From contig JBANDB010000005.1 of the NCBI GenBank assembly GCA_037576215.1, positions 3,038,001 through 3,102,000 on the forward strand: a stretch of 64,000 bases of DNA, read 5' to 3'. Positions 9,171-59,649 of the stretch are shown here, one piece after another. The position numbers were made by a program, and so were the translations under genes. A model generated the notes under the pieces. The model was not told where the DNA came from. It saw only the letters and a list, made by a program, of their open reading frames with translations, and searched no databases. Positions within the stretch are counted from its first letter, which is position 1, and the number at the start of each line of letters is the position of its first letter. Origin of the DNA: Armillaria gallica (taxonomy: Eukaryota > Basidiomycota > Agaricomycetes > Agaricales > Physalacriaceae).

Positions 9171-9199
9171 GAGTATGGATGAGAATCAAAGCACAGCAG

Positions 9200-11725: not shown

Positions 11726-11732
11726 ATAAGCC

Positions 11733-12709: not shown

Positions 12710-12793
12710 GATGAGGAGTCGAACCCGCGACAATTAGTAATAGTGTATAAATTTAAGCATATCATTACAGTTGAGCTATAGTGCCATATATAT
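12710..12793 (-). other. tRNA-related (SINE-like) sequence
   Basis: The minus strand shows an A-box match TAGCTCAACTG and, about 50 bases later, a B-box match GGGTTCGACTCC. The acceptor and T stems do not pair, so this is not a functional tRNA. The surrounding 12550-12990 is AT-rich and gene-free. A tRNA-derived SINE head is the simplest reading. Confidence 0.35.
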
Positions 12794-12999
12794 TACAATG
12801 ACCTCGGTCAATATATGGCGCCATTTCCTGGAATAGCGATGTAATTTCCGCAAACAGAGTCACTTTACTATGATCTCATCTCCGGCAGAGAATTAGAATC
12901 ATGACCTGTGATGACATCATTACCAATGCTTCGCCCCTGTGAAACAAGAGAATATATATATATGTATGGAAAACATTTAACAGGCTATAGAAAAACAGA

Positions 13000-22400: not shown

Positions 22401-24020
22401 ATGTCTATCTTGACGGAGGTGGTTCTCGAGGCTGCGATCTTGCTGGCGATTATCTGGGTTTTTTGGGCTGAATCATCCCAAGAATCCAGCGGATCTGGAC
22501 AGTATACCCTTCCGGTTCACCGGCAACAGCAACATCAACCGGTACATCAGTCACCTCCTCGTCCACCGCCTCCATCATCACAAAGTTATCGACCATCACC
22601 ATATACCCCTCTGCTTCATCAGCCAGAGCAACATCGACCGGTATATCAGCCACCTCCTCGTCCACCACCTCCATCACAAAGCCCTCGATCATCAATATAT
22701 ACACCTCCGGTTCATCAGCCAGAGCAACCTCAACCGGTATCTCAGCCACCTCCTCATCGACCGCCTCCATCACAAAGTTATCGGCCATCACCATATACCC
22801 CTCTGCTTCATCAGCCAGAGCAACATCGACCGATATATCAACCACCTCCTCGTCCACCGCCTCCACCACAAAGCCCTTGATCATCACTATATACACCTCT
22901 GGTACCTCAGCTACCTCCTCGTCCACCGCCTCCATCACAAAGTTATCAACCATCACCATATACACCTCTGGTTCATCAGCCAGAGCAACATCAACCGGTA
23001 TCTCAGCCACCTCCTCATCAACCACCTCCATCACAAAGCTATCAATCATCACCATATACCCCTCCGGTTCATCAGCCAGAGCAACATCAACCGGTATCTC
23101 AGCCACCTCCTCGTCCACCCCCTCCATCACAAAGTCATCGATCATCACCGTATACACCACCGTCACATGGACCGCCAAAACACGAGGTATCACAGTTTCT
23201 TTCACAGTACTTCCCACTCGCTGAAAAGTTTGAAATAGGACATCAACCAGCAAGACCAGCCGAATGAATACTACATCGGCCTTCGTGCACGTGCCAATGA
23301 GGAAAAGGATGAAATGGCAAGATGCAAGAGTGAAAGCCAAGATGCCTATAACCGCGGGGATCACGCTGCAGCCAAGGACCTCTCAAAACAAGGGAAAAAT
23401 CATAAACAGAAAATGGAACAGCTGAACAAAGAAGCGAGCACCTGGATTTATCTTGGTCAGTGCTATGATCCATCCCTTTTGTACTTGATGTGAATGCTCA
23501 TTTTCTCGGTAGAAAAAAACCGTGTAAGCTGTTGCGCGTCACGTTCATTTGGGATACTGATTCTGTTATTCAGCATAGCAAACCTGGGGAGATAGACCTG
23601 CACGGCCTTTATGTCAAAGAAGCTATTGCATATACAGATGCTGCCCTCGAAGAGGCGAAGCTTCGGGGTGACTCTGAAATTAGGCTCATCGTTGGTACGT
23701 GCAGGTCACGCAAAGTCTTCCATTGAATCTGAAGTCTGTATTGTAGGTAAAGGGCTGCACTGTGAGGGCGGGGAAGCAAAACTAGGGCCGGCTATCAAGG
23801 GCCTGATGCGCAAGTACGTCAGCGTACATTCTGCGAGTAATCAAAGTTCGACTAACCTTCGTACAGATACCAGTTGCCCACAGAGTTTGACCCCTCAAAT
23901 TCCGGTGTTCTTGTCGTCGGGCTTAATAGAGACACCCCGATCTGCCACCGCCAACATCTCAATATTTCCCACCGTCACTCTCGTCGCCATAGGCGACGAG
24001 CAGGCAACATTGGAGCATAG
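22401..24020 (+). pseudogene. DUF1771-Smr domain protein, one TGA in the Pro-rich repeat
   Basis: Six exons can be spliced in frame: 22401-23186, 23239-23455, 23513-23523 (an 11 nt micro-exon), 23574-23694, 23747-23813 and 23867-24020. The product starts with a hydrophobic anchor (EAAILLAIIWVFWA) and continues with a Pro/Gln-rich region of 32-residue repeats (unit SYRPSPYTPLLHQPEQHRPV...). A DUF1771 helix follows (LRARANEEKDEMARC...AAAKDLSKQGK), then an Smr domain (GEIDLHGLYVKEAI, IVGKGLH, GVLVVGLN). Smr domains are found in MutS2 and in fungal/animal DUF1771 proteins and are linked to nucleic-acid binding or nicking; the cellular role here is unknown. The only defect is TGA at 22878-22880. 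The equivalent codon in a neighbouring repeat (22686-22688) is CGA, so this is a C-to-T change at CpG. It could also be a sequencing error or a polymorphic allele. Confidence 0.85.
22490..23180 (+). repeat. Coding minisatellite, 96 bp (32 codon) units
   Basis: Tandem units of about 96 bp start near 22583, 22679, 22775, 22871, 22937, 23033 and 23129. The fourth unit is shortened to about 66 bp by loss of the HQPEQ part. All keep the frame of the Smr protein and encode the Pro/Gln-rich linker between the membrane anchor and DUF1771. Variation in unit number between strains would be expected. Confidence 0.8.
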
Positions 24021-24839
24021 GAGAGCATGGAAACAATCCATCCCTAACTCTACTGCAAAGACATGTACCAGTAATACCTCTCCCATGAAATGTAACTCGT
24101 ATCCGCAAACCCACCAAAGAGAACCCCGAAAATGGACCAAATCTACAAAATGCGAACTTGAAAGTGCAACATAGACCCGGCATACGACGCCCATCGAGTC
24201 CAAATCTCCTCCTCTATCTTTCTTTTTGTGATGTTTGTCTCCCCCAAATCAATTTCAGTTTCTGTCAGCTTCGTCGTATTTCGGCTGGTCGAAAAACCAA
24301 TCGGAGACTTTGACATCCACAAGTCGACTATTGAAAGCCGGCAGGATTCGGCCTGGGTGTATATCTATTGATGGGTCATTCGTTGCATTTTTCAAGTGCT
24401 ACGCAACTTAATATACCACACATACAACCGAAGATCAATATTACTAGATCAACCAGATTATTGACGATCGTGATTGATGACGAGTATTGCATTCTGTATA
24501 ATTAGGCTAGAATCAAACGTAGACATCGGATCGACTCTCTTTTCATCTCCCCATCATCAATCCTAGTCTGTTCACCCAGTGAAAGTTTTCTTCATTCGAA
24601 GACACCCACGCTTACAGAACCTCCTTTCGCTCGTCAGCATTTGGCAGAGATTCCTACATGCAACGGTCGTGGCTCCTCGATTTGAACGGCGCTTGGACGA
24701 CATGTTAACCAAATAACTTCGGGGAGAGATGGGTAGAGAGGAAGGTAGGCGGAGGACCGGCCAGTGGGAAGACGCTTAGCTTCGCTCATGCTGCCGTCAG
24801 CTGGGCTTGAATTGCCATACAGTTATGGTGTTGGAACTT

Positions 24840-25900
24840 GCGACTCGACAAAACTGGGGGTCGAATGTTAACAGGTTGACGCGGACATTTACTAGTGGGA
24901 CGTTGTGGAAGAAAGAGGAGCAGTTTAGGCATAGAACTTTTGCGGGGTGAATTAGCAGATTCTGAATGTCATTTTCCGTGAGGGAACTCACGGTAGCATA
25001 TAGTCGGGCTAGGCAGCTCAGCAAGATGTCCGCATTCCTGTGGCAATCCGCTGTAACACGCGGTATCGACTCGGACAAGGATATCCTCATGTCCGTTACA
25101 GAATTCACGACCTTGGGGTTGGTGGACACTTCGCCTGTCAGAGTCGGCTGGATTGAAAGTGTAGGACGGCCGTAAGCTTCGGTGGGTTTGTGCTAGGCAG
25201 GTGCAGAACTTGTCGTGAAATAGAGTGGATATAAGGACTAGCACGTTGTGGTCGAAGCTTGAAGAACCTGTTGTACTGACAGAGCTCAGGACGGAGTGCC
25301 GTTGGACATTGCTCATCACTGTCTGCTTGGGAAGCTGAGCCTCATATCTGGGGACATTGAACCGCGGCGGCACGGTGGGGAGAATAGCGAATGCAGTAGT
25401 ATTTGATGCTGACATGTTCGTCTTGGAAAGTTTCGGCGGTACAGAACACCGCAGCCGTCGCTGAACGTTTGTGGTAGATGCAAGTACTGTCAATAAAACA
25501 GTTCAGCGAGATGAGAATGGCCGACGTACTCAAGGACACGGTCAGCCCTCCCGTCCCTCTCTACGTCTGCAAAATGCCAGATTCTGTTCCTCGCTTCTCT
25601 TAGGCCATCCTCTGTATGTTGACGCATCGGCTATGCGAACCAAGTCTGAGCGTCGTTCAGATTGAGAAGCGGCCATCGTTAGGGGTGCAAAGCCGAGGAA
25701 TCGCCGCACCAATAAGTCAAACAAGGCTTGAAGGAAGAGCTTTTGTTTGCGTGCGCATCCAGACGGGGAGGGCTTCGAGGCTTTGTATATGTGTGCATGC
25801 TCATAGTCGGATGGAGAGGGCGATCCGAAACTCCGATCACAGCTTTCCTTCCATCTCCCACCGTCATCGACTATGCCAAAACCCTCGCCTGTTCACCGGC
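24840..25900 (-). pseudogene. Unit B, minus-strand gene-like remnant
   Basis: This is the counterpart of 3640-4760. The longest open part is 25493-24969 (174 codons), containing TVPPRFNVPRYEAQLPK. The next frame (25129-24797) carries NVPLVNVRVNLLTF. A good intron can be drawn on the minus strand from GTACGTCGGCC near 25530 to TTATTGACAG near 25488. No domain was recognised and no start codon can be chosen with confidence. Confidence 0.4.
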
Positions 25901-26282
25901 ACCTAGCAAAAGCCTCTTCTGAAGATATGCACAAGGCATCGTCATTATTGCAATGGGAGGAAGGGAGGCGTAGGACTGGCCGTGGGTAGGAAGACAAGGG
26001 ACATGTCCATGGTCGTCTTCACTGTTCGCCATCCTCTTTTCAAAGTTTCACGTGTTCTGCCCTTTACGCCCAAGTCAACCTGCCGTCGCTTGGCCTCCGT
26101 ACCAGTCGCCGGTCGTCTTCATACCAACGCTTCCCTCCGACGTACGTTTATGGCTTCCAGCGTTTTACGCTGATGACCTGGGCCTGATTGGCTCACATGC
26201 GACAAGAATCCGAAAGCAAAAGACGCAGCAGAACGCACTGAGGATGTCGCTTTTCCCCAACGGACCGCGACTGTGAAGGAAG

Positions 26283-27810
26283 CAAGCGACGTTCGGTGAA
26301 TGCCAGCGTCGTGTCAGCTCCAGGGTATGTCTACCGCTGTCATCTCGAACGCTGAATTCATATTGACGCGACCGCCATCTGCAGTTTCTTCGTCTGGAGG
26401 AGGAATCCTTCGGCGATGGATGGCTCTAAGGAGAACTTGTCTATCAGCATTGTCTCAGAGCCTTCAGTGCCATTTCGTTGTGTCCATCTCTGCACCTTCC
26501 TTCTCCGTTTCCCTCCCTAGTCTTCAGCTTACCTTCACCCACACTCCGATGCACAAAATCCTGACTACCTACCGAGTGACGGTGGCTGGCGTGTATGCTT
26601 TGACTCCAGAGCAGGAATAGTACAACAACCCATAAATATCACTGCTCCGCCATCCACTTCAAAGCCACTTCATAAGCAAGACGTACGATTATTTCTTCCT
26701 GTTCACATTATCGGGAGATCCAGAGCTCAAGTCGCAACATCATTCCTTGTCCCGCTCGATCGTCTTCCTCCAAGTCTACGCGAAGACGCCGTTACGATTG
26801 ATATCGGGCGAAGTCACTCCCGTTACTGGAGATGGATGGACTACGTCTGTCTCGACCTTCCCCAGGAAGGTCGAACTCGCTTGTCTCCTCTTGATTTCGC
26901 GTCTGGTAGAGAGAAGGGGACTCATCTACGGTATTCGTTGCGCCCCGACATGGCTTGGCCATTGAAGTCATTGCGGGTTTTGCTGAATGGTATCGCTAGT
27001 TTGCATGCTACAATGAATGCACGCAGAGTTTGGCTGTATAAAGTGGAGACGGTCGGTTATCACTGCGTCGCTGGTTATCGAAATTCTATTTCATATCCTC
27101 CAACCTACCTCCCGACCGAAAGCAATCATCAATGTGATTGTATCATCCTCCTGGTCGACGGCTTTGTGTCTCATTTAATCATACTCGCTTATTCTTGCAA
27201 CGCAAGGAGCCTAAACTGGGCCGAACGAAAGGTCCACGATCGCAGAGCCCATTCCACCACCAATACCCGGGATTTGTATCCTGCCAACTATTCTCCAATG
27301 GTCCTGCTTTTCATGCTCCAACAGTGGCGACGCTTCAACTTGGACGACTCTCGGAGTCTAGTTCGTGCAGACGATACACCACCAAGACCGGTTTGGAGGA
27401 TGGAACTGTGGGAGGACAGGATTCGGCATCGTGCTACGACTCCAGTATGTTCATGATGATGCTCATTCTGTTGACCTTGTACTGATACTGCCTTTCTTTC
27501 TGCAGTTTATAACGGACAGTGTCAAGAAGCGGGAGTTCTTCGCATATGTATCGATGTCCTCCTTTTCGTGTATTGCAAGTGGTGAACTCTCACCAGTATT
27601 ACAAGGATGTCGAAGTCAGCTGACTCGTCATTCTTCTCCTCGCTCTCTACTGCAGACCGCTACTGAGCACTTTTTTCTAATGCAAAATCGTTTAGCTCTA
27701 TACGTGGAAGTCAGCATATTGAAGAACGACGATTGCGACGTCGAGAACATCTGCGGAATGAACACGACGGGAAATGCAACCATGGCTTATGACACGGCTT
27801 TATGTTAGTT
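26283..27810 (+). pseudogene. Unit B, plus-strand orphan gene remnant
   Basis: The three marker peptides recur in order. SAMDGSKENLSISIV follows the conserved intron (GTATGTC near 26323 to CTGCAG near 26382). FITDSVKKREFFAYVSM lies near 27510. LYVEVSILKNDDCDVEN leads into ICGMNTTGNATMAYDTA at 27695-27800, with two sequons. A 206-codon frame at 26836-27456 covers the middle part and includes SGREKGTHLRYSLRPDMAW, shared with unit A (LRYPLRPDMAW). Stops and frame changes between exons make it a likely pseudogene. Confidence 0.45.
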
Positions 27811-27899
27811 GGTTCATTACCTTCCGATTACTTTTACTGACATCTCTCCGGATAGATCTCTCAACCTCACGATAATCTTTACTCCTTTGGCATTTTCTG

Positions 27900-28980
27900 T
27901 ACGCCGGTTGGTTCTCAGTACCACTGCCGCTGGTGTTGTGTATATTCTCCGGCTTATACACGCATGATAAGACCAATTGGTACATCAAGTCATGCAAATG
28001 GGGAGGTGACATGTGAGATGCAAAAGTAAACTCTTCTTAATTATGACATAGGGCCATCTTTTTTAATGGGATCTTGTAGCACTTTATTCATACTCTCGAC
28101 TTCGAAGCACGCGAGAAGCTTCATATAAGTTGGGTGATTTCATGAATAATTTGCTTCGGCCATTATGTGATGCTCAACCGGCGGACATTATCTTCTCTGT
28201 GTGCATTATCATGGTCTCATCCACCAGCGAAGCTTTCCTAGGTTATTATATCTAGAGCTTGAACTAACGCTTTCATGGTCACTGTATCGTCTTAGTACTA
28301 CAGCTTGGTGCTTGAGCTTGATGGTCTATGAATTATCTTGATTTCTGGCCTGCATACATATACGAAATCTAAGTTACCAGTAAAGTAGCGTTAAGCATAT
28401 CGTAAAAGAGGGTTGCAGGTGAAATTCCCACCATCGGGAGCGGGATCAAAACTCTTCTTTCCGTCTCCCACCACCGAATTCAATCAACCACCAGTGATCC
28501 ATGTCTGCTTGTCTTTGCTCGACTGAAGATGCGTACACAAATGGAAGCTCTTTGCTCTTCAAATTTCTTGGCGCGACGATTCCTCAATTGTGCATTGCCA
28601 ACGCCGGTGCTCAAGCTCTCAACGTCAACCTGAATGACGCTTGGACTTGGTGACACGTCAGCATGTCAATTTTTGAGCAGGAGGTGGAGCGAGGCAGTTT
28701 GTTGGCGGAGAGATGTGAGACGATGATGACCGTCGAGTCAGAGAGCCGTACATGGTTAAGCTGGGAGAGCATCCTTAGCTTGACTACTCTTGGTACGTCC
28801 ACTATTCTCATCTCTCTGAACTCTTGCTGACATCTAGTCGTACAGCAGCCAATTTCTGGGCGGAGAGAGTCCTCCAAGAGCCTGTTTTTACTCCTCTTCT
28901 TCTTTGATCGTCACCGCGTCACCAACTAAACAGTCTATCAGTTTCGTGTCTGAATTCCGCTACCCTTGCGCCGATCTAGT
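27900..28980. other. Spacer between units B and C
   Basis: The first part (28020-28480) shows nothing recognisable. From about 28500 the sequence resembles parts of the dispersed unit on the plus strand: FKFLGATIPQLCIANAGAQA near 28560 resembles FLxRRFLDFASPTVAAP at 31250. This suggests a further eroded copy or a rearranged start of unit C. Confidence 0.3.
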
Positions 28981-31189
28981 ACCGAGTTGCAGCTCCTACC
29001 ACCATTTCCTTCACGATGCCAGCGACTTTTCTCGATAACGTCTGCGCCTGCCTACTGATCCAAAATTGGATCGCTGACGCGTTTCTGCAGAACGCCTCTA
29101 CCGCTAGATAAAATCAAACACTGGGATCCCGCCTCCTTACGGCGACCCTTCGGTTCACATACAACGCACCTCCTTCCGCGACAACAGAAATGTCCACCAT
29201 CCCTCTTTGCCTTTACCACCACCATCACTTGACGCGCTGCCCTTATCCGCTTACATTCCTTGACTGAAGACACGTACACACAGAAACTCCTCTCGTCCTA
29301 ATGGTGTTCGATTTCTTGGCACGGGAATCCCTCCTTTTGCACCTGTGACTGTACTCAGACTACGTGTCATCACGGTGGTTTTGAGTGTGTGTAGGTTGGG
29401 GGGGGGGGATGTAGAGATGCCCTTGAGACAGTATCTCCGCGCTGAGGGCAGCCTTTGTCACGTTCAGCTCGAAGACGGTGATGTCATCTTCGAAAAGCAT
29501 CCCGCGTTTGACGTTCTCTCCGCCACACCTTGGACTGGTATATTCTTCCCGAACGCCAGACTTTCCCAAGCTGGCAGCTACACGATGTCGTCGACGGAAA
29601 CCTCGACAGATCATTACCCTTCGCCGCTACGTGCGTCGTCCAAATCCTCGCTTTTATCTTTCTTTATCTCATGTTTCTCTCCCCCTAGGGTTCCCTCTTC
29701 GCTTCCATCGGCCTCCTCGTGTATCAACTGGTCGAAGAACGCTTAGAAGGATCGGTGTCATTGCTGTGGCTGTTTATTATGCGTCCGATCGCAGAGGGAC
29801 GCCTCGGAGTGCAGGACTGACTATTGAGATCTCAATGAGAGTCGACAGGTGCCGGGAATGGTGCACATGTCTATGCATTTGCATGAGTGGCGGGAGGGAA
29901 CCATAGCCGCGTTTGGGGGTGTCTTAACCAGTTCTATGCAGCGACCACATACCGAGTCAAAATCCGCATTGTATTCTGTGCAATTAAGTACCCAATATAT
30001 CAGGTACTAATTCGCATACGTAGAAATAAGTGTAAATGAAGGCCCGTAGATGAAGAGAATATGTAACACAGAAGAGACGTGCAGTATGAACGGGCACACG
30101 GAATAAATAACGAGCAAACCAGCTGTATAGTCAGTACAGCCCGGTCGACCACGATACGTATAGAGAGAGAAACGGTGCTATAGGAGTTTTGTGGCCATTG
30201 AATATCGTAGGACACACTGGAGTCGATTTCCGTATAGCGACGGCCTACATGTATCGTTGACATGTACTCCACTCCAATAGCGCGAAGGAAGATAGATGGC
30301 TGGGAAACGAGCCGGCCCAGGCATCCCGGACTTGTGAACACATATATTATTCCTAGTCTGTTCGCTCGGCGAAAGCTTTCCTCATTGGAAGACACGAACA
30401 CTTACAGAAGCTCCTTTCTCTCGTCAACATTTGACGGAGATTCCTAAATGCAACAGTAGCAGCTCCTCAATTTGAACGGCGCTTGGACGACGTCAACGAG
30501 ATAGTTTTGGGAAGAGGGGATGGGCTGAAAGAATGGGAGAGGCGGAGGACCGGTCAGTGGGAAGACGCTTAGCATTGCTCATGTTGCCATCACCCGGGCT
30601 CGAGATTTCCATACAGTTATTGTGTTCGAAGTTGCAGTAAGATTTATCACCTGGAAAAAGTCAAAGGTTAGCAGGTTGGCGCGGACACCGTAAAACGTTT
30701 GCTAGTGAGACGTCGTGGAAGAGAGAGAAGGGTCAGCTTACGTGTAGAACTTCTGCAGGGAGAATTAGAATTCTGAATGACATTTTCGGTGAGGGAACTC
30801 ACGACAACAAATGGTCGAGCTAGGCAGCTTTGTAAGACGTCAGTATCGACTAGGATATCCTTGCACCCGTTACAGAATCCACAACCTTGGGGTTGGTGAA
30901 CACATCGCCTGTCAGAGTCGGCCAGGATGAAAGCTTAGGATGGTCATAAGCTTGGTGCTTTGTGCTAGGAAGCGTGCGGACTTGTCGTGAAATTGAGGGT
31001 ATATAGAGTAAGCAGAAAGCCAGTCGTGCATGGCGCGTGGACTAAGAGACGGATGGTTGACTTGGGCACAAAGGACAGAGGACGCGTAAAAAGAGGACTC
31101 TCCGTGCCTAGGAATTAGCCAAGGATTTTGTGCATGTCTTCAGAGGGGGCTTTCACGGTGGGAGACGAAAGGGAAGCTGATCGGAGTTT

Positions 31190-31580
31190 CGGATCGCGAT
31201 TCGCCCTCTCCATCCACTCCGGGCGCGCGCACTCCTACAAAGCCTCGTTCGATTTCTTGGCCCGGCGATTCCTTGACTTTGCATCCCCAACGGTGGCCGC
31301 TCCTTAACTTAGACGATGCTCAGACTTGGTTCGACGAGCCAACGTGCAGGGAGGTGTAGAGAGGGACGGGAGGGCTGACCGTGCTATCGGCATCCTGAGT
31401 ACGTTGTCTATTCTCATCTCGCTGAACTATTTTATTGGCACTATTCACATCTACCACAGTTTACCGACAGCTGCCATGTTATACATCGCTGAAATTTTCC
31501 CTACTGGTTTTGCCGTTCTCCCCACTATGCCACCGCGGTCCAATGTTCCCAGATATCAGACTCAGCTTCCCAAGTAACTA
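31190..31580 (+). pseudogene. Unit C, inverted piece of the minus-strand gene remnant
   Basis: The plus strand here reads FLARRFLDFASPTVAAP, then an intron-like GTACGTTG...CTGAAC...CAG segment, then PTMPPRSNVPRYQTQLPK ending in TAA at 31575. This matches the minus strand of unit B near 25700-25330. The change of strand relative to the flanking collinear blocks is the evidence for a local inversion. Confidence 0.45.
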
Positions 31581-31904
31581 TCGACGATATGACCAGTGAG
31601 CAAGGGATACTTAGTCCTTTCGGCGTACAACAAGCGCTTCAAACTTTGACCACACCATGCTAATCTGTACCAGCCTTCGGTCGTCTTCATACCAACGCCT
31701 CCCTCCGATCTACGTTCATGGCTCCCAGTGTTTTACGCTGACGGCCTGGGTGGCCCACATGCGACAAGAATCCGAAAGAAAAAGACATGGCAGAAGGCAT
31801 AGAGGCAGTCACCTTTTTTCTCAATGAACCACGACTGCGAACATCACTCTCATGCCAATCACCAGAAGGAAGCGAAGGAAGGGAGTGACGTTCAGTCACT
31901 GTGA

Positions 31905-33395
31905 GGGTCACAGGCAGGGTAGCGCGTCGCCGACATCCAGGGTATTTCGAACGACTCCAGGGTATGTCTACCGTCGCCATCTTGGACGCTGAATCCATAT
32001 TGACGCGACTGTCATCTGCAGTTTCTTCGTGTAGAGGAGGAGGAATCCTTCGGCGATGGATGACTCCAAGGAGAGCTTGTTCGTCGACAATGTCATCGGA
32101 ACCAAGTTCGGTGCCATTCCATCGTGCCCATCTCTACATCTTCCTTCTCCGTTTCCCTCCCTGGTCTTCGGTTCAGCTTCACCTACACTCCGATACATAA
32201 TATCCTGACTACCCGAGAACACGTACTTCCTTCCGATTTAGGCGGTGACTGGAACGAACAGCTTGACTCCCCAGAGCAGGAATACCACTTCAAAGCTGCT
32301 TCGTAGGGCGCATACAACCAAGGCGTACCATTTCTTCCCCTCTACTTCTGTATGCATATCAGAGGTCCGGAGTTAGAGTTTTCAGCACCATTCCTTGTTC
32401 AGCTCGTCTTCCACCAAGTCTATACACGAAGACGCCGTTACGATCAATCCGAAGTTGGTTTCAATACCAGAGATGGGATGGTGGATTACGCCTGTCTCGA
32501 CGATTCCCAAGAAGAAGCTCACTCATTTTGACTTCGCGTCTAGTAGAGAGAAATGCACGTTTCCGCCCTCGTCTGCGGTTTTCGTTGCGCCGACATGGCC
32601 TGCTCATTTCGGGTCGGCACCGCTAGCAGAGTCCGCTGCGCCTAATGCTATTATGGATGTATGCAGGACTATTCCACTTCCCATCTGCCAACGCACCTCC
32701 CGACCGAAAGCCATCATCCATTTGGTCAAATGTGATCGTATCATCCTCCTGGTCGACGGCATACTCGCTTATTCCTGTCTGGCAGCTCCCATCGCAATGC
32801 AACGCAAGGAGCCTAGCCTAGCCTGAGCAAAAGGTCCACAGATACAGAGCCTAATTTTCCCTAGATGTCGGATCGTTCGAAGTAGCACCCCACGGTTTTG
32901 CTTTTCACACCCCAACAATAGCGATGCTTTAAGTTGGACGACTGTCCGTTTTTGATTCGTGCGGATGACAACTTGGTGGACGGAATTTGGGGGAAGCTTG
33001 GAAAGAGCATGGTGCTATGACTCCAGTATGTTCACGATCCCCGTTCTGCGGACCTTGTACTGATATCAATTTCATCTGCAGTTCATAACAGATAATATCA
33101 AGAAGCACGAGTCCTTCGCATGTGCATTGCTATCCTTTCACGTGTTATAGGTGGTGAACCCTCATCAGCGGTACAAGAACGTTCAAGCCAGCTCGCCAGG
33201 CCATCCCTCGCTTCCTCCATTCCCTTAGTAATATCCACCTCCAACTGCTGCGGAGAACCTTTTGCTAGTGCAAAAATATTCAGCTCTATGTGTAAGAGCC
33301 AGCGATGATTGCAACGTCGGAACATCAACCAGTGCGGAATGAACGTGACAGGAAATGCAACCATGGCTCCAGGCTTATGGCGCAGTTTCACGTTA
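31905..33395 (+). pseudogene. Unit C, plus-strand orphan gene remnant
   Basis: The marker peptides are SAMDDSKESLFVDNVIG (near 32060-32110, after the conserved intron ending CTGCAG near 32022), FITDNIKKHESFACALLSFH (near 33083-33142) and NINQCGMNVTGNATMA (near 33322-33370). The last exon has lost about 20 bases and its frame relative to A and B (SDDCNV is followed by a frameshift). A block PAHFGSAPLAESAAPNAIMD near 32600 corresponds to the WSFGLAPLASLMLSWM region of unit A in another frame. This is clearly a pseudogene. Confidence 0.45.
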
Positions 33396-33926
33396 GTTGG
33401 TCCATTACCTCCCGGTACTTACTGACCTTTCGCCAGATGGATCTCTCGATCTCATGATAATCTTGACTCCCTTGGCGTTTTCGGTAGGAAAGGACAATCA
33501 GCTCCGAAGTTCCGAAGCTCCGATTGGGACCGGGACCAACACTACTTTTCGTCTTCCACCGCCGTCGACGATAGGTATCGACTCGGACATGCCATACAAA
33601 GCCTCGATCAACCAGCAGCATTTCTAATCTATTTGTCTTTTCTTGACTGAAGATATGCAACACAAGCTCTTCGTTCATCAAGGCTTCTTGACGTGGAGAT
33701 TCATCGATTTTGGACTCCTGACTGTCAACTTCAACCTTGGTTCGCATAGATGACGCGTCAACGTATCTATATTAGCCTTGAGCAGACGTTAGCCTGGGAG
33801 AAGCGAGGCGCAGAGTTTGGCGTGTTGCGGGCGGAGAGGGACGGGAGGGACGTGGTTAGACTGGGCTAAGTAGAGAGAGTTGCTTTTTTTGGAACCCACG
33901 TGGGGGCTATATCGGTTTTCTACCCT

Positions 33927-35333
33927 GGGTTTTGATACGCCTGCCGAGCGTACACCTTTTAAAAATGCGTGTAAATTAACATTTTCTGGCAATACAACGG
34001 TATTACACTGTACCAATCAGTAAGACATAGAAAGGAAGTAACACATTGTAAAGTAAAAAAGATCCACCTGATAACTTCGAAATGGGCTGTTCTAACACTT
34101 GAATAGAAGATCGGGTATTCTACCCGGTAGACCGAGGTTCCAGATTGCGACTCGTACAGCGTAATCACCCAGCATTCCGGCGGCAGTTATCCGATCGCCT
34201 GGTAATGATCTAGCACGATTGATCGACCTAGTAGCCGTGGATGAGATAATATCTGCCAGGTAGAGCGTTTATCCTCACCAGGCTGGGTCAGCAAGCATAT
34301 TAGTCAGTAGTAAAAAGCAGTGTTGGACTTAAGGGGTAGGCCTTAACTTAAGGGAAGGCTTAATAAGAGCTTAACATAACCCTTAATTAGCACCTGAGAT
34401 TTTCAAAAACCTTAATTAAGGCTGAGCATGATCAGGTGATTTGGATTGCAACATCAAAGTTGCACAGAAATCTCTTCACAAGTCTTCACCCTCTGCCTCT
34501 GCTGCATTCTTATCATGCTTCCACTGCCTAGATGTGTATAAAAGCACTACTACACAGTTCTAGAGAATGAAGAACAAGAACTATCATATGACATACTGTT
34601 ATCCATGCGTTAATAAATATTTGTCACTATAATGTTAAGTCCTTAAGTTGACTCTTAATTAAGTCCCCTTAATAAGTATTAAGGGCTTAACTTGGATTTT
34701 GAGCCTTAATAGCAGCTTAAGATCCAACACTGGTAAAAAGGGTTGGAAATAGTATATCAGTAGGGTAGTATAAATACAGATCATGTATCTAGTGGGGAAT
34801 CAGGTTTCTGACCCCCCAGAATGCTACCAGGTGAATAGTATGGGTTTTATTGGTTAAGAGCTTCAAGTCATAGACTCACCTGGAATAGAAAGATTGTGAC
34901 CTGGTCACTTCATGTGTGCAAGAACAGACAAGCAAGCAAACAGTATTAAGCTAGAAACAGAAAGTCAGACCCGAGAAACAGTTCAGAACCAGTCAGTGTG
35001 TTTTAAGTCGCAACCAGGTGCAAAGTATCAGTATTGAAACTACATCAGGCAGCCAGCACAAGTTCAGAACCTGCACCAGGCAGTTATTCTGTGTCAGTTT
35101 AAGTTTGTGTTCAGTGACACGTCAAACTTAGAGTGGAAACTGCAATATATTCTTTAAATCAATCATATTCATTGCACCCAGAACTTGTATCTTAAAGTAC
35201 AAAGTGTTGTAACCTGGTATAACATACCTCCCTTTGAACCACAATTACTGAGTGTTTAGTGTAGTGTGGTGTGTGTAGCATGTTGCATCTTCATAGGCAC
35301 TCAGCACCTTTCAGTTTTCAAAACTCTAAACTT
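33927..35333. mobile_element. 1.4 kb insertion inside unit C
   Basis: Unit A runs without a break through 7060-7090 (CCCTGGGTTCCTGTTACCAG). In unit C the same sequence is split between 33926 and 35334. The inserted block has no coding capacity and is AT-richer than its surroundings. It carries a TATA-like TATAAATA near 34768 and a nested MITE. Its left end resembles the TTGATACGC start of the LTR at 46504, but the right end does not match that family and no target duplication is clear. It could be an LTR fragment or an unknown element. Confidence 0.6.
34318..34732. mobile_element. hAT-like MITE, 415 bp, perfect 8 bp TSD
   Basis: The element begins CAGTGTTGGACTTAAG and ends with CTTAAGATCCAACACTG. 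It is flanked by exact copies of GTAAAAAG (34310-34317 and 34733-34740). An 8 bp duplication with CAGTGTTG-type ends fits the hAT superfamily. The interior is non-coding and packed with TTAAG/CTTAA words in both orientations, so the whole element can fold back. It sits inside the 1.4 kb insertion and must be younger than it. Confidence 0.88.
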
Positions 35334-40971: not shown

Positions 40972-42005
40972 ATGTCAACGTCATCTCAAGGAGCTCTTGT
41001 CCCCCTGATACAATCCATTCCTCGTTACAATCCTAGGTCATTCCAGATAGTGCAGCTCCTCCAGGCCAACAAGACGCCATCACCACAGGAGCTGTCTGAA
41101 CTTCGTAGGACTGTCACTGAGGCCCTGCAAAATATCATTAACCTCAGATAGAGGATCAAGGTGATACAGGAGCTCCTAGATGTTTTAATTACACAGCAAT
41201 CTTACGCATCTGATGCACTAGATGATGCCAGATTTATCACCCATTCTCCCTGCTGACTTCCTGAGGATGTCCTATTGGAGATATTTTATCATTGCATCAA
41301 TGAGGTTGTGGAGGCATTACACATAGGAGAGACGCATTGTGTTTTGCATCACGATGCTGTGCCATTGTCGCTATCTCAAGTGTGCCAAAGCTGGCGATGC
41401 GTAACTATTCAGGCACCTCTTTTATAGCACTGTGTATCTGTTAACTTGCACAACCACTATGTCACCTGAGAACATCATCCTGGGGCTCCCTATACTAATC
41501 ACGATGACCCTCGGAGCTCATATCTTCTCTGCATTCATCTTCAAAGAGCCTGTCAGGTCTCTCTTCATGTATGCATCAATGGTTGCTCAAATTTTGCTCA
41601 AATTCCTTTGATTCCCCCTCTTCTCTCCACATCCAGTGCTTGGGTTGAGCTCTCCCTATGACTTCTCTTCTCCACATATCATCAACTTGCCACATGCCAT
41701 GAATTCCTTGACCGTCTCCAGTTCCTGTGGCTATCAGTCAAGGATCACACCAATGTTAACACAATCATTGCTCCTACTGAAGTTGTATCAGTATTTTCCA
41801 TAGCTCGACAATTACAAGAAATGCGATGTGATGATCTTCATAACACATGTAACTTTTTCACCTTTCTGTCGGATCATGTTGAAATATTTTTGTCGAGGGT
41901 GGATAGCAAGGAGGATCTCACGTCTTTGACACTGCTCCCAAATGTGAAGGATCTCTCCCTCCACTGTTATGTGGATTTGTTTCCTCAAGATCTATATGCA
42001 CAAGG
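40972..42005 (+). pseudogene. F-box/LRR protein gene, 5' part
   Basis: From ATG 40972 one frame gives a coiled-coil-like N-terminus and then the F-box signature LPEDVLLEIFYHC (about 41257-41295), followed by PLSLSQVCQSWR and LRR-like text up to 42005. This is the usual layout of the large Agaricomycete F-box family, adaptors of SCF ubiquitin ligases. In-frame stops include TAG at 41149-41151, where CAG is likely, and TGA at 41254-41256, where CGA gives the common ...RLPEDVLLEIF. A further TAG near 41426 may be a former TGG. The gene is then cut by an LTR and resumes at 43696. Confidence 0.75.
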
Positions 42006-43695
42006 TGATGGGCCTAAGACTTCCGTGGCAACGGCAACACCAACTCGGAACAAGATTGGGTAATTAATGTAGTAGCATGGCAATCAAGGCGATCGTGTGT
42101 GCGAGTGGTTCGGGGCACCTCCATGCAGTAGAACAATTCCTCTATACGCAAGAATACACTGCAACTTTAAGTCTGCGAAGTAGTACTGCTTGGTAGTCGA
42201 GTACTAAATGCTATGGCTTCAAGCCAGTAGGGATCTCTCGAAATGAGAGAGAACGAAAATGGGTATGACATGAATACCACGAATCCGTATGAGAAAACGT
42301 GCTGTGAGACTAGAAAACGTCGCGCTATGGTAATCTGAGTGAGGAGAACGATGGAAAATAGACTAAACGGTCGGCAATAGTCTATGGGTGAGTGAGGCGA
42401 TGAGAAAACGGTGTGGGGACTGCGAATGGTGAAATAAACGTGGAACAAGATGTTGAGGGTGGACTGGCGAGAGAAAACGTTGAACTACGAAAACTTGGCG
42501 ATGATACTGGTCCTATACAATGTGATGGTGCTGAGTCGATGTCGAAACTGGTCTGGTACTGAAACGATCCTATCCTATGTCAAACTAACCTTCAAGTCCA
42601 CTCGAGGGACTGATACTATACGAAAACTGGCTGAAACTGATCCTAAGTCTGCTTGGAGACTACCCAAGTGGGTGACGATAACAATGGCGAAAGTGAAACT
42701 GTAAAAACTCCAATGGTGCGAAAGTGAAATGATGACGGCCTATAAAAGATAATGGGGGCGAGGTATAGTGCGGCGATCACGTATTGGCACAGTATGAGCG
42801 TGCACCAATAGTGTTAAGAGCAAAGAGCACATAGTGAAGGACTCTTCACAGTTAAAAACCATGGAATAACTCTGGTGAGCTTCAAGAGTCGACGTGCAAT
42901 CAAGAATATGCTGGTGTAAACAATATATTGCCGTAGAACGGTGAATAAACGTTATTTACTGGCGATAGACTAGAGCGTGACAGTAATTGACGTAGTCTGG
43001 GGTCAACTAGAGATGAACTGCTCTTGAACTACGTTTTCTAACTAGTTTTTATACTACAAGTACAAATTTATAAATAGAGTAGATATGCGAGACTTAGTAA
43101 GGCCATAAAGCCTTGGCTTTGTAAAATCATAGGTAACATATAGTCCTTGGCCTTCTAAAGTAACAGCAACTCACCAACGTTGCCATGTATGGATGCAAAC
43201 CGTATGGTTTTGCTTGAGCGATGCACGGATCGTTAGGTGCTGTTTAGCTGCAGATTACCGAGCGATAGTCGTCATACTGAGGAATATGCATGGGGTAACA
43301 TTTTCTTGAGGCCTTGGCAAAGTAACAGCCTTAGTAAACGCGGTCTGTAGTTGCCATAGCTTTAATTATCGTAGCTGGGAGGGTACTCGAGTCAATCACG
43401 TCATTTTCATTAAGTGATCAATGAGTGCGTCAACTGGTGCTTCTGAGTGATGTGTCAATTCCGTATTGGGATGATTGTCGATCGAAGGTGCCTTGCCATG
43501 ATGAAGTATGGCAATTATGATGCGTGGCAAGATGGGATGGATAACAAAGCGTGTAAGGAGTGGTTGCTGTAGGATGAAAGTGGTATCAGTGGGTGTGCAA
43601 TCATTGGTTTGCTGAAAGGCCGTTGAAGGGACAATAGCATTAATTAGCAGACAAAATTTGCGAATTCTGAGCATACAGAGCCTGGAGGCTCATCA
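42006..43695 (+). mobile_element. Solo LTR, family Y copy A (1690 bp)
   Basis: Ends are TGATGGGCCT and AGGCTCATCA (inverted with one mismatch). The insertion lies in the F-box relic, with flanking AAGG (left) and ACGG (right), a 4 bp duplication with one change. A CCTATAAAAG TATA-like box near 42740 suggests plus orientation. Copies B (54767-56425) and C (57197-58887, inverted) confirm the boundaries. Copy A has kept many CG dinucleotides that copy B has lost. Confidence 0.85.
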
Positions 43696-53090: not shown

Positions 53091-54766
53091 GCAGGAAGTG
53101 GTCATGCTAGGCATTCTGAGTCTTGCGTCCGTTGGGGTCCTCTGAGAGGAGGATTCTTCTTCCAGGCTTTCTTCCAGAGCCTCCTATTGTGAGGAAGATT
53201 TCGACTCTGGCACCCTTGCGGTACTCTCTGTTACCAGAGGAGGTTTCGCTGTAGCTATTCCCTCAATACTCCTGGCGAGGCCGGGACTCTGTGGAGCCAC
53301 TTCATCAGGGGGGGCAGCTAGTGCTTGTTCCCCTGCCCTGTCCAATTGCACCTTTCCAGTTGGCTTGGCCCTTGCCTTCGCCTCGTTCCAGTGCATCGTT
53401 GAGACAGGTGTCACTATGGTAGGTGACTTTTTGACTGATGCTTTTGCTCGTGATGAGCTACTTGCCAATCACTTAGCCAGTTGCACAGTCCTGAGGTTGG
53501 TGGCTCTGATAGTCAGCATTTTGTCATTGTCCATGAGGACATCGTATCGGTTTATTGATTCTAATACTGTGCAGCATGTGTTAACAGAAGTCGGTAGTGC
53601 TGGTCCCTCACATAGGGGCTGGGGTATATTCGAATGTGTAGTAGATAAAACAGATGTAGCTAAAAAGGGAGCATAAGACTGTCCAGCAGAAGACAAGCGT
53701 GCACCAGTATGTAAGTCCTTGGTCATCATAGGGGAATTGGACCCTTGGCAACCTCTTCTTTTACCTCCTCTACCTTAGTGTCCTTGGCCAGCAGTTCTTC
53801 GACTGTGGCCACTGCATGTACCTTCTGCTTCTTCTTCTTCATCAGGCAATCCTTTGATAGGTGTCCCTTCTTGTGGCATGTAAAGCACCTTCCTTTGCTC
53901 ATGTGCTTCTGTCAGTCTATGTCCATGGGCTGCCCCTGCTCCCCATACATCGTCCATTGCCCTGTTCCTGCATCTTGGCCTGGCATATGGGCAGCCGGCT
54001 TGGCTGCTGAAGAAGTTGACACACCACCTGCTTTCAGTTGGGAGCTGGTGGCAGTAATGGCCTTCTGGTTGCCAGAGGGACGAGCGTCATGCTGGTTGGA
54101 GCCAGTGACCTGGTCGAACTCCCACTTCTTCTGCCGCTCTTCGTACATCGTGACAATGTGGGCTTTCCATTCAGGGTAAGTGCGTGGGATGTTGAACCTG
54201 GCATTGGCGATGAAGGTGGTATAGTTGGAGGGGACCCCCATGCGGATGGCTCTGACCATTGCTCCTCATTCTTGCTCATCATTTCGGAGTCCTGCCAACT
54301 TGGCCTCTTCCTCTAGCTTTTGGAAGTAGGCAGTGGCCATGTTGTTGCCCATGTGGAGGTCAAACATTCACTTTTCATAGACCTCCTTGATGGTGGGGTC
54401 CTGGAACTGAGCGTTTACGATCCCCATGATGTTGTTCCATGTGGGGTATCGGAATCGGGGAGGGGCTGGGTCCCATCCTGATTTCGTCCAGAACTCCTGG
54501 CATTTGTAAACCCACCAGTCTTTGGCAGGTCCTTCGAAGTGGGAGGTGGCAAAGGTGACCTGTAGAGAGGGGCTGTTTTGGAAGTATGACTGAAACACCT
54601 CGAAGTAGGTGAGACAGTCCCCAAAGAATCATTTGATGTTGTCATGCTCCCTCTTGAATGGTTGCACAGTTCAGAGGAGCATGGGTTTGATCCCCAAGAA
54701 GGGGGCGTTGTCGTCAGCTTGTCTGATGGGTTGGGGGTATGGATCAGGGGGTTCCCACTTCTCTGG
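53091..54766 (-). pseudogene. Ty3/gypsy element 2, gag core and zinc knuckle
   Basis: In order on the minus strand: LGIKPML (about 54690); FGDCLTYFEVFQSYF and ATSHFEGPAKDWWVYK (54620-54510), the hallmark of fungal gypsy gag; FRYPTWNNIMGIVNAQFQDP (about 54440); MVRAIRMGVPSNYTTF and IPRTYPEWKAHIVTMYEERQ (54259-54140); and a CCHC knuckle CFTCHKKGHLSKDC (53887-53846), followed by a basic Lys-rich tail. In-frame stops at 54673, 54631, 54370, 54268 and 53914 (first base, minus strand) are all TGA, at places where Arg fits. The frame stays common across them, so this is one gene inactivated by point mutation and then by the LTR X2 insertion. Confidence 0.85.
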
Positions 54767-56425
54767 TGATGGGCCTAAGACTTCCGTAGCAACAGCAACA
54801 CCAACTTGGAATGAGATTGGGTAATTAATGTAGTAGCATGGCAATCAAGGCGATCATGTGTGCGAGTGGTTCAGGGCATCTCCGTGCAGTAGAACAATTC
54901 CTCTATATGCAAGAATACACTGCAACTTTAAGTCTGTGAAGTAGTACTGCTTGGTAGTTGAGTACTAGATGCTAAGGCTATAAGCCGGTAGGGATCTCTC
55001 AAAGTGAGAGGGAATGGAAGTGGGTATGATGTGAATACCATGGATCCGTATGCAAAAACATGAGACATGACTAGAAAATGTCGTGCAACAGTAATCTTAG
55101 TGGGGTGAACAATGAGAGATAGACTAAATAGTAGACAATAGTCTATGAGTGAGTGAGGCGATGGGAAAATGGAGTGGAGACTGTGTGTGGTGAGAGAAAA
55201 TGTTGTATGAGGTGCTGGGAGTGGAATGGCAAGAGAAAACATTGAACTACAAAAACTGGTGATGATGCTGATCCTATACGATGCGATGGTGCTGAGTCGA
55301 TGTCGAAACTGGTCTGGTACTGAAACAATCCTATCCTATGTCAAACTAACCTTCAAGTCCACTCAAGGGACTGATACTATATGAAAACTTGCTGAAATTG
55401 ATCCTAAGTCTGCTCTGAGACTACCCAAGTGGGCGATGATAACAAGGGTGAAAGTGAAATGATAACGGCCTATAAAAGATAATGTGGGCGAGATATGGCA
55501 TCGCGATCACATATTGGCACAATATGAGTGTGCACCAATAGTGTTAAGAGTGAAGAGCATGTAGTGAAGGACCCTTCACAGTTAAAAACTGCAGAATAAC
55601 TCTGGTGACCTCAAGAGTTGACATGCAATCGAGAATATGCTGGGGTAAATGGTATATTGCCATAGAATGGTGAATAAATGTTGTTTACTGGCAATAGACT
55701 AGAGCGTGATGATAATTGATGTAGTCTGGAGTCAACTAGAGATGAACTCCCTTGCAACTACATTTTCTAGCTAGTTTTTATACTACAAGTATGAATTTAT
55801 AAATAGAGCAAATACACAAGACTTAGTAAGGCTGTAAGGTCTTGGTTTTGTAAAAATTGTAGGAAACATATGGTCCTTGGTCTTCTCAAGTAACAGCAAC
55901 TTGTTGACATTGCTGTGTATGGATGAGAACCGTATGGTTTTGCTGAGCGATGTACGGATTGTTAGGTGCTGTTTAGCTGCGGATTACTGAGTGATAGTGG
56001 TCGTGCTGAGAAGTACATGTGGGGCAACATTTTCTTGAGGCCTTGGTGAAGTAACAGCTTTAGTAAACACAGTCTGTAGTTGCTATAGCTGCAATTGTTG
56101 TAGCTGCAAGGGTACTCATGTCAATCACATCATTTTCATTAAGTGATCAATGAGCATGTCAACTGGGTGCTTCTGAGTGATGCATCAATTTTGTATTGGG
56201 ATGATTGTCAATCAAAGGTGCCTTGCCATAATGAAGTACAGCAATTATGATGCGTGGCAAGATGAAATGGATAACAAAGCACATGAGGAGTGGTTGCCAT
56301 AGGATAAAAGTGGTATCAGTGTGTGTGCAATCATTGGTTTGCTGAAAGGCCATTGAAGGGACAGTAGCATTAATTAGCAGGTAAAATTCACGAATTCTGA
56401 GTGTACAGAGCCTGGAGGCTCATCA
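54767..56425 (+). mobile_element. Solo LTR, family Y copy B (1659 bp)
   Basis: The ends are TGATGGGCCT and AGGCTCATCA, flanked by a perfect 4 bp duplication CTGG (54763-54766 and 56426-56429). It lies in gag of element 2, in the opposite orientation. Removing it joins the gag pieces. The TATA-like CCTATAAAAG lies near 55470. Compared with copy A, it has TG or CA at many CG sites. Confidence 0.9.
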
Positions 56426-57196
56426 CTGGTGGTTGGAGTACTGAATAGCAGTTGGTGCGCTCGTGGAGGGGACATTCATGATTGGAGGGTGGTGGTGGTC
56501 TCCTGTGGTCAGGTTCCTTCTTTCCTTCCAGCTCCTTCCCCTTAGTCAGGAGGCGGTGTAGATTGTTGTGGAAGTCTCGTGCTTCCTCTGCTTCTGCTAA
56601 TTCCTTCTGGAGCTGCTCTATTTGTTGCTGCTTCCTTTCTGCATCCTCCTTGGCCTGTTGCATCCTTTCTTCCTTTGACGGTTGTGCCGGTGCTCCACTG
56701 CCTCCTGCATCATCTCTGGTGCCAGCAAATAGCCTACTCCTTCCCTTGCCAGAGTAGTAACCATGTTGTCATTTTGATTTGGAGGTGAGTCGGGGAGGGG
56801 TCCCAGGTAGAACTCTGGGAGGCCTCCGAATGTTTTGTTATCATAGTGGAAGGTGTTGAACTGGTTAGAGGTCGTTGACCCCATCCAGGTCTGGTTGGTC
56901 ACCCTGTTGAAGGGCAAAGGCATGTAGGGTGTTCCCCAGGTCGCACTGTTCCTGTTCTGTCCTGGGTTGTAGTTGGTGTACTCGTAGTCCAGTGGCAGGA
57001 GGGTATAGGGTCCTGTCACAGTTTGCAAAGATCTGAGCAGTGATGACCATGTCAGTTCTGTACCTGGGAAGTGGGGCTCCTCTGTTGAGGGTGAGGAAGA
57101 GCCCCATCAGTTCTCGTTCTCCTGGTCCAAAGAATGTTCCTCAGGATTTGACATCCTGTCATCGGATTTCCCATGCCTCGGTTCGGAAGGGACCAA
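56426..57196 (-). pseudogene. Ty3/gypsy element 2, gag middle part with coiled coil
   Basis: The minus strand contains YLLAPEMMQEAVEHR-like and PYTLLPLDYEYTNYNPGQN readings (57020-56740), then a strongly heptad-like acidic/basic helix, AKEDAERKQQQIEQLQKELA and onward (56655-56560), then a His/Cys-rich end near 56450. A coiled coil before the gag core is plausible for multimerisation. The fragment is bounded by LTR Y copies C and B, each with its own target duplication. Confidence 0.7.
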
Positions 57197-58887
57197 TGAT
57201 GAGCCTCCAGGCTCTGTATGCTCAGAATTTGTGGATTTTCCCTGCTAATTAACATTGCTGTCCCTTCAATGGCCTTTCAGTAAACCAATAATTCCACACA
57301 CAGCAATACCACTTTCACCCTACAGCAATCACTCCTTATGCGCTTTGCTATCCATTCCATTTCGTTACACATCATCATTGCTGTATTTCATCACAGCAAG
57401 GTACCTTTGATTGACCATCATCCTAATACAGAATTGTCACATCACTCAGAAGCAACTAGTTGATGCGCCATCAATCACTTAATGAAATAATGTGATTGAC
57501 ACGAGTACCCTCCCAGCTACAATAATTGCAGCTACGGCAACTACAGACCGTGTTTACTAAGGCTGTTACAATGCCAAGGCCTCGAGAAAACGTAGCCCTG
57601 CATGTACTCCTCAGCACGACGACTATTACCCAGAAATCTGCAACTAAACAGCACTTAGTGATCCACTCATCGCTCAATAAGACCATACGGTTTCCATCCA
57701 AACATGGCAACATCAATGAGCTGCTGTTACTTTTGAAGGCAAAAGACCATACGTTCACTACAATTTTACTAAGCTATGGCCTTACAGTCTTACTAAGTTG
57801 CTCATATTTACACTATTTATAAATTCGTACTTGTAGTATAAAAGCTAGCTAGAAAAACGTAGCTAGCCAGTTTATCACCAGTTTATCACAGTACATCTCA
57901 GTGCACCACGACAATTATTGCCAGTAAACTATGTCACTCACTGTTCTATGGCAATACACCGTTTACCCCAGCATAATCTCAATTGCACATCAACTCTTAA
58001 ACTCACCAGAGTTATGATACGGTTCTTAACTGTGAAGAGTTCTCCCACACTTGCTCTTCGCTCTTAACACTATTGGTACATGCTCATATTGTGCCAATAC
58101 ATGATTGCCGTGCCATACCTTGCCCACATTATCTTTTATTAGGCTGTCTTCGTTTCACTTTCACACCATTGGAGTTTTCACCATTTCACTTTCACCATCA
58201 TTATCATCGCCCACTTGGGTAGTCTCCGAGTAGGCTTAGGATCAGTATCAGCAAGTTTTCATATCACATCAGTATAGGACAGTCCCTCGAGTAGACTTGA
58301 AGGTTAGTTTTGACACAGGATAGATCGTTTCAGTACAAGACCAGTTTCGACATTGACTTCAGCACCAGCACCATATAGGACCAGTTTCATCACTATTTTC
58401 GTAGTTCCACATTTTCTCCTGCCATTCCACCCTCAGTACCTCTTTCTACATTATCTCTCGCTTCACTCAACCTCAGTAACACGTCTTATCATTGACTCTC
58501 TCTTGTCTAGACTGATTGCCATCGGTTTAGTCTATCCTCCATCGTTCACCCTGCTTAGATTGCCGTCTAGTGACGTTTTCTAGTTTCACAGCATGTTTTC
58601 TCATACGGATTTGTGGTATTAATGTCATACCTGCTTCCGTTCCCTCTCACTTCAAGAGATCCCTACTGGCTTATAGCCAAAGCATCTAGTACTCGACTAC
58701 CAAGCAGTACTACTTCGCAGACTTAAAGTCGCAGTGTATACTTGCATATAGAGGAATTGATTTACTGCATGGAGGTGCCTCAAACCACTCATACACATGA
58801 TCACCTTGATTGCCATGCTACCACGTTAACTTGCCCAATCTCATTTTGAGTTGGTGTTGCCATTGCCATGGAAGTCTAGGCTCATCA
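57197..58887 (-). mobile_element. Solo LTR, family Y copy C (1691 bp, inverted)
   Basis: The minus-strand copy has ends TGATGAGCCT and AGGCTCATCA, a perfect 10 bp inverted pair. It is flanked by an exact CCAA duplication (57193-57196 and 58888-58891). It is inserted in the gag of element 2 in the same orientation as that gene. Confidence 0.9.
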
Positions 58888-59649
58888 CCAAGGATTCATT
58901 GGTCGGCGGGGGAGAGTTCAGGCCACTCGTAGTCGGGCCCATTGGTGTTGAGGGGGTCATCGTCCTCTCGCTGGATGGGCTTTGGGGTGCATTCTCTTTG
59001 TCGGACTGGGGCGAAGGGATTCAGGGCATCAGGGTCACTGTCCTCGCTTTCAGAGGGGAAGCAGCCAGTTGGGGGTTGGAAGGGGAATGGGACAAGGGGT
59101 CTGTCTCAGGGGAGTACCATCCTGGGGCGATTTCTTGATAGTGCCAGGGCCCTTCTTGGCCTGGCAGGTGTATAGGGCAGGGGTGCATCATCCCCATGTT
59201 CAATCTGTACATGCCTGATGGGTTCCTTGTAGGCGGCAGTAGGTATTGTTGGAGAGGGGGTTCTGTGAACATTGCTGGGCCCCTGGGTCACGTATCAGGG
59301 TTCCTCCCTATGCAGGGGGAACTCCTCATTGGACTCGTGGTGGATGGTGGTTGTGGACCGCCGACGGCTCGCACCAGAGGTCATCATTGTCAGTTCATGA
59401 TCTGCCATACATAGCTGTCCCACCATTGGTTCAGGTTGGAAGGGGATGACATAGTGGGCAGGGAAAGGGATGGGTCAGTGGATCCGGGCGGGTACAAGGA
59501 CTCTTCTTCTTTGGAGGTAGTTTTGAATCTGTTCTCCATGAGTCCGTACATTAGAATGATAAGAGCAGTGAGGAAGGAAATGAGACAGGCACCGACTATA
59601 GCAGTGCTGATTGCGATCATCTAGTTCTTGGTCAAGTCAGGAGTCATGG
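58888..59649 (-). pseudogene. Ty3/gypsy element 2, gag N-terminal part with a predicted TM helix
   Basis: ATG at 59649 gives MTPDLTKN, then a TAG, then an open frame starting IAISTAIVGACLISFLTALI, a clear hydrophobic membrane-spanning candidate (59625-59550). It continues with PPGSTDPSLSLP, SNLNQWWDSYVW and a long proline-rich stretch including PLPYTPARP-like and IEHGDD readings. More than one frame is used, so a frameshift near 59390 is likely. It starts 57 bp after the 5' LTR (59706), as expected for gag. Confidence 0.6.

Follow-up and report, generated by a model that had tools for sequence, protein, structure and literature searches.

Probable CpG decay of a broken Ty3/gypsy-like gag, and the target sites of the LTR family that split it, in Armillaria gallica

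Introduction

In most ascomycetes RIP prefers CpA in its C-to-T changes and hits any duplicated DNA in bursts; the RIP-like process of the Microbotryum type prefers TpCpG.

For three basidiomycetes with Masc2-like methyltransferases, CpG-to-TpG decay of transposable element (TE) copies has been read as methylation followed by deamination, and no RID or Dim-2 was found in the three species studied (Amselem et al. 2015, PMC4352252). In the TE-rich Agaricomycete Tricholoma matsutake, CpG-biased C-to-T hypermutation was filed under RIP by the authors, who left open whether RIP had produced it (PMC6980582). Repeats of Marasmius oreades, also an agaric, show a mean of 0.75 methylated reads per CpG (PMC9674265); methylation was measured there, whereas here we see only its presumed mutational trace. 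With regard to integration, published accounts give a CGCGCg target for the Drosophila errantivirus ZAM (PMC2527525, PMC5408687) and 5- or 6-bp target site duplications (TSDs) of variable sequence for Cryptococcus LTR elements (PMC12810828).

The locus described here lies in a stretch of 64,000 nucleotides from Armillaria gallica, which we call the window. Its TE families share the CpG-only C-to-T signature with the basidiomycetes of PMC4352252 and, as copies in a TE-rich Agaricomycete with CpG-biased C-to-T change, resemble those of T. matsutake. The TGA-only stop pattern with which we begin is an ordinary and known type of TE decay, in print for basidiomycetes and an agaric (PMC4352252, PMC6980582). 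Relative to the former study, the present work differs in treating another genome, in testing the pace of CpG loss and in using the two TSD halves as in-place controls; relative to the latter, which left a RIP origin open, it offers data that speak against a burst. With such internal controls (copies of different age, TSD halves), slow methyl-CpG decay is easier to tell from RIP, the very question left open by the T. matsutake paper. The LTR family that interrupts the gag recalls ZAM, likewise an LTR element, in its strong choice of targets that contain CG, but differs from it in that the CG dinucleotide alone seems to be required (NCGN) and in that its host is a fungus, probably a CpG-methylating one.

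A gag split by a solo LTR

The minus-strand frame read from 54766 contains five in-frame stops, with first bases at 54673, 54631, 54370, 54268 and 53914, and all five are TGA, just as an earlier note made from the letters alone had reported; the next stop in this frame is at 53728. The feature so delimited (53728..54766, minus strand) most likely encodes the C-terminal end of a gag of Ty3/gypsy-like type; a CCHC knuckle was recognised by eye. It is identified by the frame reading, by a weak match to the Pfam family Retrotrans_gag (PF03732; E 0.003 and 18.2 bits, under the cut-off of 24.1) and by 25 relatives recovered in a protein search. The closest of these (P0001) has 58% identity, four (P0004, P0006, P0012 and P0019) have PF03732, and all 12 that carry a source name are from Armillaria. 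After the gag, ORF reading shows two pieces in another frame of the minus strand (53184..53774), with a TGA (53471) between them and a TAG (53186) at the end; they overlap the end of the gag and are either a frameshifted second ORF or the product of an indel.

Position 54766 is the point of interruption by a solo LTR and not the start of the gag. The LTR (TGATGAGCC...GGCCCATCA; 54767..56425, minus strand, CpG O/E 0.39) is delimited by the sharp ends of its family, and this 1.66-kb repeat has TG...CA ends and a short TSD, CCAG, seen by flank comparison on the gag side (54763..54766, minus strand) and again on the other side (56426..56429, minus strand). Beyond 56426 lies the N-terminal part of the gag as an open frame (56427..56696, minus strand), which tblastn matches to the region upstream of the gag in the relatives L041, L040 and L042 and blastp to P0003 and P0004. 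In L042 and L040 the gag aligns across the junction without an insert. Since CCAG and gag homology flank 54767-56425 on both sides, this element is a solo LTR that has integrated into the gag, and its reading as the gag's own LTR is rejected. Family ends and flanks place two further copies in the window: a second solo LTR at 57192..58890 (plus strand, TSD CCAA/CCAA, CpG O/E 0.56) and a third copy at 42004..43695 (minus strand, CpG O/E 0.94) with the unmatched flanks CCGT/CCTT.

Stop codons in the gag and across its family

If mutation acted at CpG only, the sole one-step path to a stop would be CGA to TGA, and hence TGA-only stops are expected. The other codons of the window gag frame offer 12 one-step transition routes to TGA, 22 to TAG and 9 to TAA; with the five observed codons themselves added, the TGA share of routes is ~0.35, giving a probability near 0.006 that five of five stops are TGA. 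None of the 31 CAA, CAG or TGG codons has turned into a stop, as against five TGA beside three surviving CGA (Fisher p ~1e-4, a value that takes all five TGA as former CGA).

The earlier note had placed an Arg at each of the five stops, a claim that the aligned relatives back in part. Arg is found at sites 1 to 5 in 1/27, 16/27, 4/29, 11/29 and 15/28 relatives, respectively, and the CGA codon itself in 1, 7, 0, 6 and 1 of them, with Lys being the commonest residue at site 1 (21/27) and site 3 (15/29). The relatives back Arg at sites 2, 4 and 5; at sites 1 and 3 most of them have Lys. By this alignment a CGA ancestry of the TGA is well supported at sites 2 and 4, where the refuting condition set by the earlier note (intact relatives lacking CGA) does not hold, and an Arg ancestry is well supported at site 5, where relatives mostly encode Arg by other codons; at sites 1 and 3 a CGA or Arg ancestry is only plausible.

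A search of the genome (86.0 Mb in 28 contigs) with the window gag gave 545 first-look candidates, of which 123 were scored as matches, counting the window gag itself. The 122 other copies contain 290 TGA, 32 TAG and 11 TAA stops (290/333 TGA); 98 of them have a stop, 69 of these TGA only, and the remaining 24 are free of stops in the matched part. Across 30 aligned copies the ratio of TGA to CGA is 123:108, versus 18:728 for TAA and TAG to CAA, CAG and TGG, an odds ratio of 46 whose p value should not be read literally, because the copies share ancestry and pooled counts are not independent events. Stops occupy only 4/199 cells at CAA/CAG columns and 4/151 at TGG columns of the aligned copies.

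The same alignment provides a view of what happened to the CpG-containing codons. Ten columns with CGN in at least half of nine CpG-rich copies were scored in the 21 CpG-poor copies, in which 115/205 codons at these columns are products of one CpG transition, versus ~15% in other columns. These products comprise 29 TGA, 31 other TGN and 55 CAN codons; that is, the CpG-poor copies often carry TGA, Cys/Trp (TGN) or Gln/His (CAN) at these positions, corresponding to C-to-T change on either strand. TGA density drops with rising CpG O/E over the 30 copies (Spearman -0.44).

Substitution spectrum, pace and strand of CpG loss

C/T differences were counted by dinucleotide context over all pairs of 32 copies of the LTR family. 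They affect 0.657 of pair-sites at CpG (26217/39902), compared with 0.088 at CpA, 0.115 at CpC and 0.084 at CpT, a range of 0.084-0.115 outside CpG. Broken down by the 5' base, the values are 0.72 for ACG, 0.68 for CCG, 0.65 for GCG and 0.58 for TCG. The copies therefore lack the CpA preference of one type of RIP (CpA 0.088 versus CpG 0.657) and likewise the TpCpG preference of the Microbotryum type, TCG being the lowest of the four NCG contexts. CpG transitions occur on both strands and in all NCG contexts, which is the behaviour looked for in methyl-CpG decay.

A duplicated TE segment, with copies close to contig ends on C2 and C5 and containing one insertion of the LTR family, provides a second spectrum. 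Over 4.68 kb its two copies have 68 differences, of which 47 are at CpG-derived dinucleotides, 21 are other transitions and none are transversions; the changed sites by context are TCG 16/75, ACG 11/42, GCG 6/41 and CCG 4/24. The adjoining 3 kb (CpG O/E 0.10) has CpG changes at 5/25 sites, along with 18 other transitions and seven transversions, some of them in an indel. As marked by the locus pairs L010/L013 and L069/L070 on these contigs, the duplicated segment extends over at least 7.7 kb, with differences that are mostly transitions. Taken with the gag family, the 32 LTR copies and the TSD halves described below, this segment strongly supports the earlier proposal of CpG-directed C-to-T change rather than random decay.

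As a measure of pace, CpG loss was compared with private non-CpG changes in 28 of the 32 LTR copies, four having been left out after inspection (W_57192 and L030 because private changes abound in them; L010 and L013 because they represent a single event). The two quantities rise together (Spearman 0.76). When the copies are sorted by CpG loss into four bins, the ratio of private non-CpG changes to CpG loss is 6.3, 5.2, 6.3 and 5.7. The correlation is weaker if no copy is left out (32 copies; Spearman 0.51, p 0.003; p 0.07 for a linear fit). The same-strand share of neighbouring changes is 0.492, versus a shuffled mean of 0.501, and there are no strand tracts. CpG loss is gradual and strand-symmetric, and it keeps pace with other substitutions. 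The ratio of CpG to non-CpG rates is poorly fixed, ranging from ~14 (an estimate from LTR pair counts) to 198 (private changes).

Weighing the explanations

Very probably, this is a broken Ty3/gypsy-like gag that decays mainly by C-to-T change at CpG, through deamination of methylated CpG in TE copies. The host, with enzymes that are likewise presumed, would keep its TE copies methylated at CpG, and over long periods deamination would turn 5-methylcytosine into thymine on one strand or the other. Methylation as the driver is the best reading of what is indirect, mutational evidence. Points that weigh against this explanation are the Lys of most relatives at two of the five stop sites, the spectrum of the 3 kb next to the duplicated segment, the weaker pace correlation over all 32 LTR copies, the low ratio in one repeat comparison (15297-16451 versus 39400-40523) and the undepleted duplicated stretches, which may be genes or unmethylated repeats. 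Its chief competitor is a RIP-like process in which duplicated DNA would be detected ahead of meiosis and mutated heavily at its CpG sites in bursts, an option that the earlier note had kept beside methylation and that we now regard as unlikely. It could draw on the transition-only, CpG-biased differences of the 4.7-kb TE segment and on the precedent of T. matsutake mentioned above; but among the NCG contexts of the LTR copies TCG has changed least, and neighbouring changes share a strand no more often than in shuffles. Further, a single early pulse would leave CpG loss independent of age, so that a loss proportional to private substitutions over the ages seen argues against a burst. Duplicated stretches of the window that are 71-74% alike have CpG/non-CpG ratios of just 1.2-2.0, although their divergence may place them beyond the reach of RIP. 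A duplicated 1.5-kb gene stretch with two identical copies (see below) is unchanged, which says little, since the duplication may have happened too recently or may stem from the assembly. Gradual change that affects both strands and every NCG context, in pace with other substitutions, fits methylated-CpG deamination better than a RIP-like burst.

The two other readings fare worse. Random decay of a pseudogene that met five TGA by chance gains something from there being only five events and from the two sites at which most relatives lack Arg, but the low probability of five out of five, the 290/333 TGA stops of the family and the contrast of CpG with other contexts in the LTR copies render it highly improbable. 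Scarcely credible at all is the notion that TGA is not a stop here, owing to recoding or a different code: it would account for all stops of one frame being TGA, but not for the CAN and TGY/TGG codons that the CpG process has also produced in those columns, the inverse relation of TGA density to CpG O/E over the 30 copies, or the 24 of the 122 other copies that have no stop in the matched part.

Candidate methylation machinery

A profile search of the genome with PF00145 returned five matches. One of these ORFs matches the PDB entry 7r76 'Rad8' (E 4.7e-64), which we take to be the Cryptococcus Dnmt5, and otherwise only three entries of identical sequence; this DNMT5-like ORF is itself CpG-undepleted (O/E 1.12). 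It is found in two identical 1.5-kb stretches (L071 and L072, on contigs C9 and C18), each less than 70 kb from the end of its contig, which may represent a recent duplication or an assembly duplicate. A search of the genome with PF12047 (DNMT1-RFD) gave no match, and the control for that search was also silent. DNMT5 and DNMT1-RFD are the CpG maintenance enzymes of Basidiomycota according to a 2026 review (PMC13297926).

Target sites of the LTR family

The start of the LTR occurs 631 times in the genome and is preceded by CGN in 281, TGN in 160 and CAN in 155 cases, so that CG, TG or CA stands at the TSD centre in 596/631, which amounts to a fixed sequence at the insertion point of the kind seen in ZAM-like target choice. 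Three bases further out from these starts CG occurs 12 times. The LTR end occurs 189 times, followed by NCG in 90. Both ends were read in 30 independent copies, of which 26 show a 4-bp TSD when transitions are allowed (a transversion excluded a pair from the TSDs), ten of them exact; the four without are W_42004, L019, L031 and L036. Both TSD centres are CG, TG or CA in 26 of the 30 copies, and the share of these dinucleotides in the flanks beyond the TSD is 168/900. The flanks of 31 copies are CpG-poor, with a median O/E of 0.29 and 56/62 under 0.6.

Because the two halves of a TSD are identical at insertion, they act as an in-place control for CpG decay. In the 26 pairs, 21 differences fall on the two central bases and five on the two outer ones. 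Their centres are TG/CA in seven, TG/TG in four, CA/CA in three, CG/CG in five and CG with TG or CA in seven; these classes fit original targets that would all have been CpG, though the numbers are small. We considered a general preference for pyrimidine-purine targets and rejected it: TA is at the left TSD centre in 0/30 copies, and discordant TG/CA pairs (7) equal the concordant TG/TG and CA/CA pairs (4 + 3), as expected, within these small numbers, if every target was CpG.

Nine of the 100 starts listed break the CG/TG/CA rule. Four of the nine lie 15.02-15.09 kb downstream of a rule-obeying copy on the same strand, as expected for the inner flank of a 3' LTR, and in these four same-strand pairs only the downstream member breaks the rule; a fifth is 16.98 kb from a rule-obeying same-strand copy. 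Pairs 14.7-15.2 kb apart among the starts listed are on the same strand in six cases and on opposite strands in three. Full-length copies of the family are likely to measure ~15.05 kb from LTR to LTR.

This CpG-centred target choice looks new: among the publications covered by our literature search there was no fungal precedent, and ZAM was the one like case. In a family with hundreds of insertions, it ties the integration site to a dinucleotide that the host probably methylates, and it is testable from sequence alone in other agaric genomes. A speculative extension, which we consider doubtful, is that the LTR family that split the gag, with its insertions almost only at CpG, has an integration complex that recognises methylated CpG; were this true, host methylation would steer new copies into silenced DNA and then erase the duplicated target via deamination.

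CpG content along the window and other repeats

CpG O/E per kb is 0.84-1.13 at 1-14 kb, 0.35-0.81 at 14-22 kb and 0.80-1.07 at 22-34 kb, and falls to 0.16-0.59 in 27 of the 30 one-kb bins of 34-64 kb. Three bins stand out, with 0.75 at 40 kb, 1.05 at 42 kb and 0.66 at 43 kb; those at 42 and 43 kb are inside the LTR copy at 42004-43695. CpG O/E delimits two undepleted blocks, one at 1..14000, with no Pfam match in six ORFs, and one at 22000..34000, with further copies of the 3-7 kb stretches and no Pfam match in four ORFs.

Three duplicated stretches with undepleted CpG (3245-7068, 24561-27901 and 29989-33931), pieces of which are 63-80% alike, lie in these blocks; four comparisons among such stretches are those with the low ratios cited above. 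The CpG/non-CpG ratio in five repeat comparisons is 20.7, 5.9, 36.9, 14.9 and, for 15297-16451 versus 39400-40523, 1.9. Not all repeated DNA in the window has been hit by CpG decay. The idea that the undepleted duplicated stretches (3-7, 24-28 and 30-34 kb) are host genes is weakened by the scan of ten ORFs from the undepleted blocks, none of which has a Pfam match, and a protein search with one ORF of these blocks (26521-27456) found no relative; they may be genes or unmethylated repeats.

Two smaller repeats complete the picture of the window. At 22448-23254 there are seven overlapping repeat copies, mostly 96 bases apart, in long overlapping ORFs on both strands. At 49332-49632 there is a MITE-like inverted repeat with 116-base arms that are 91% complementary and a 69-base spacer.
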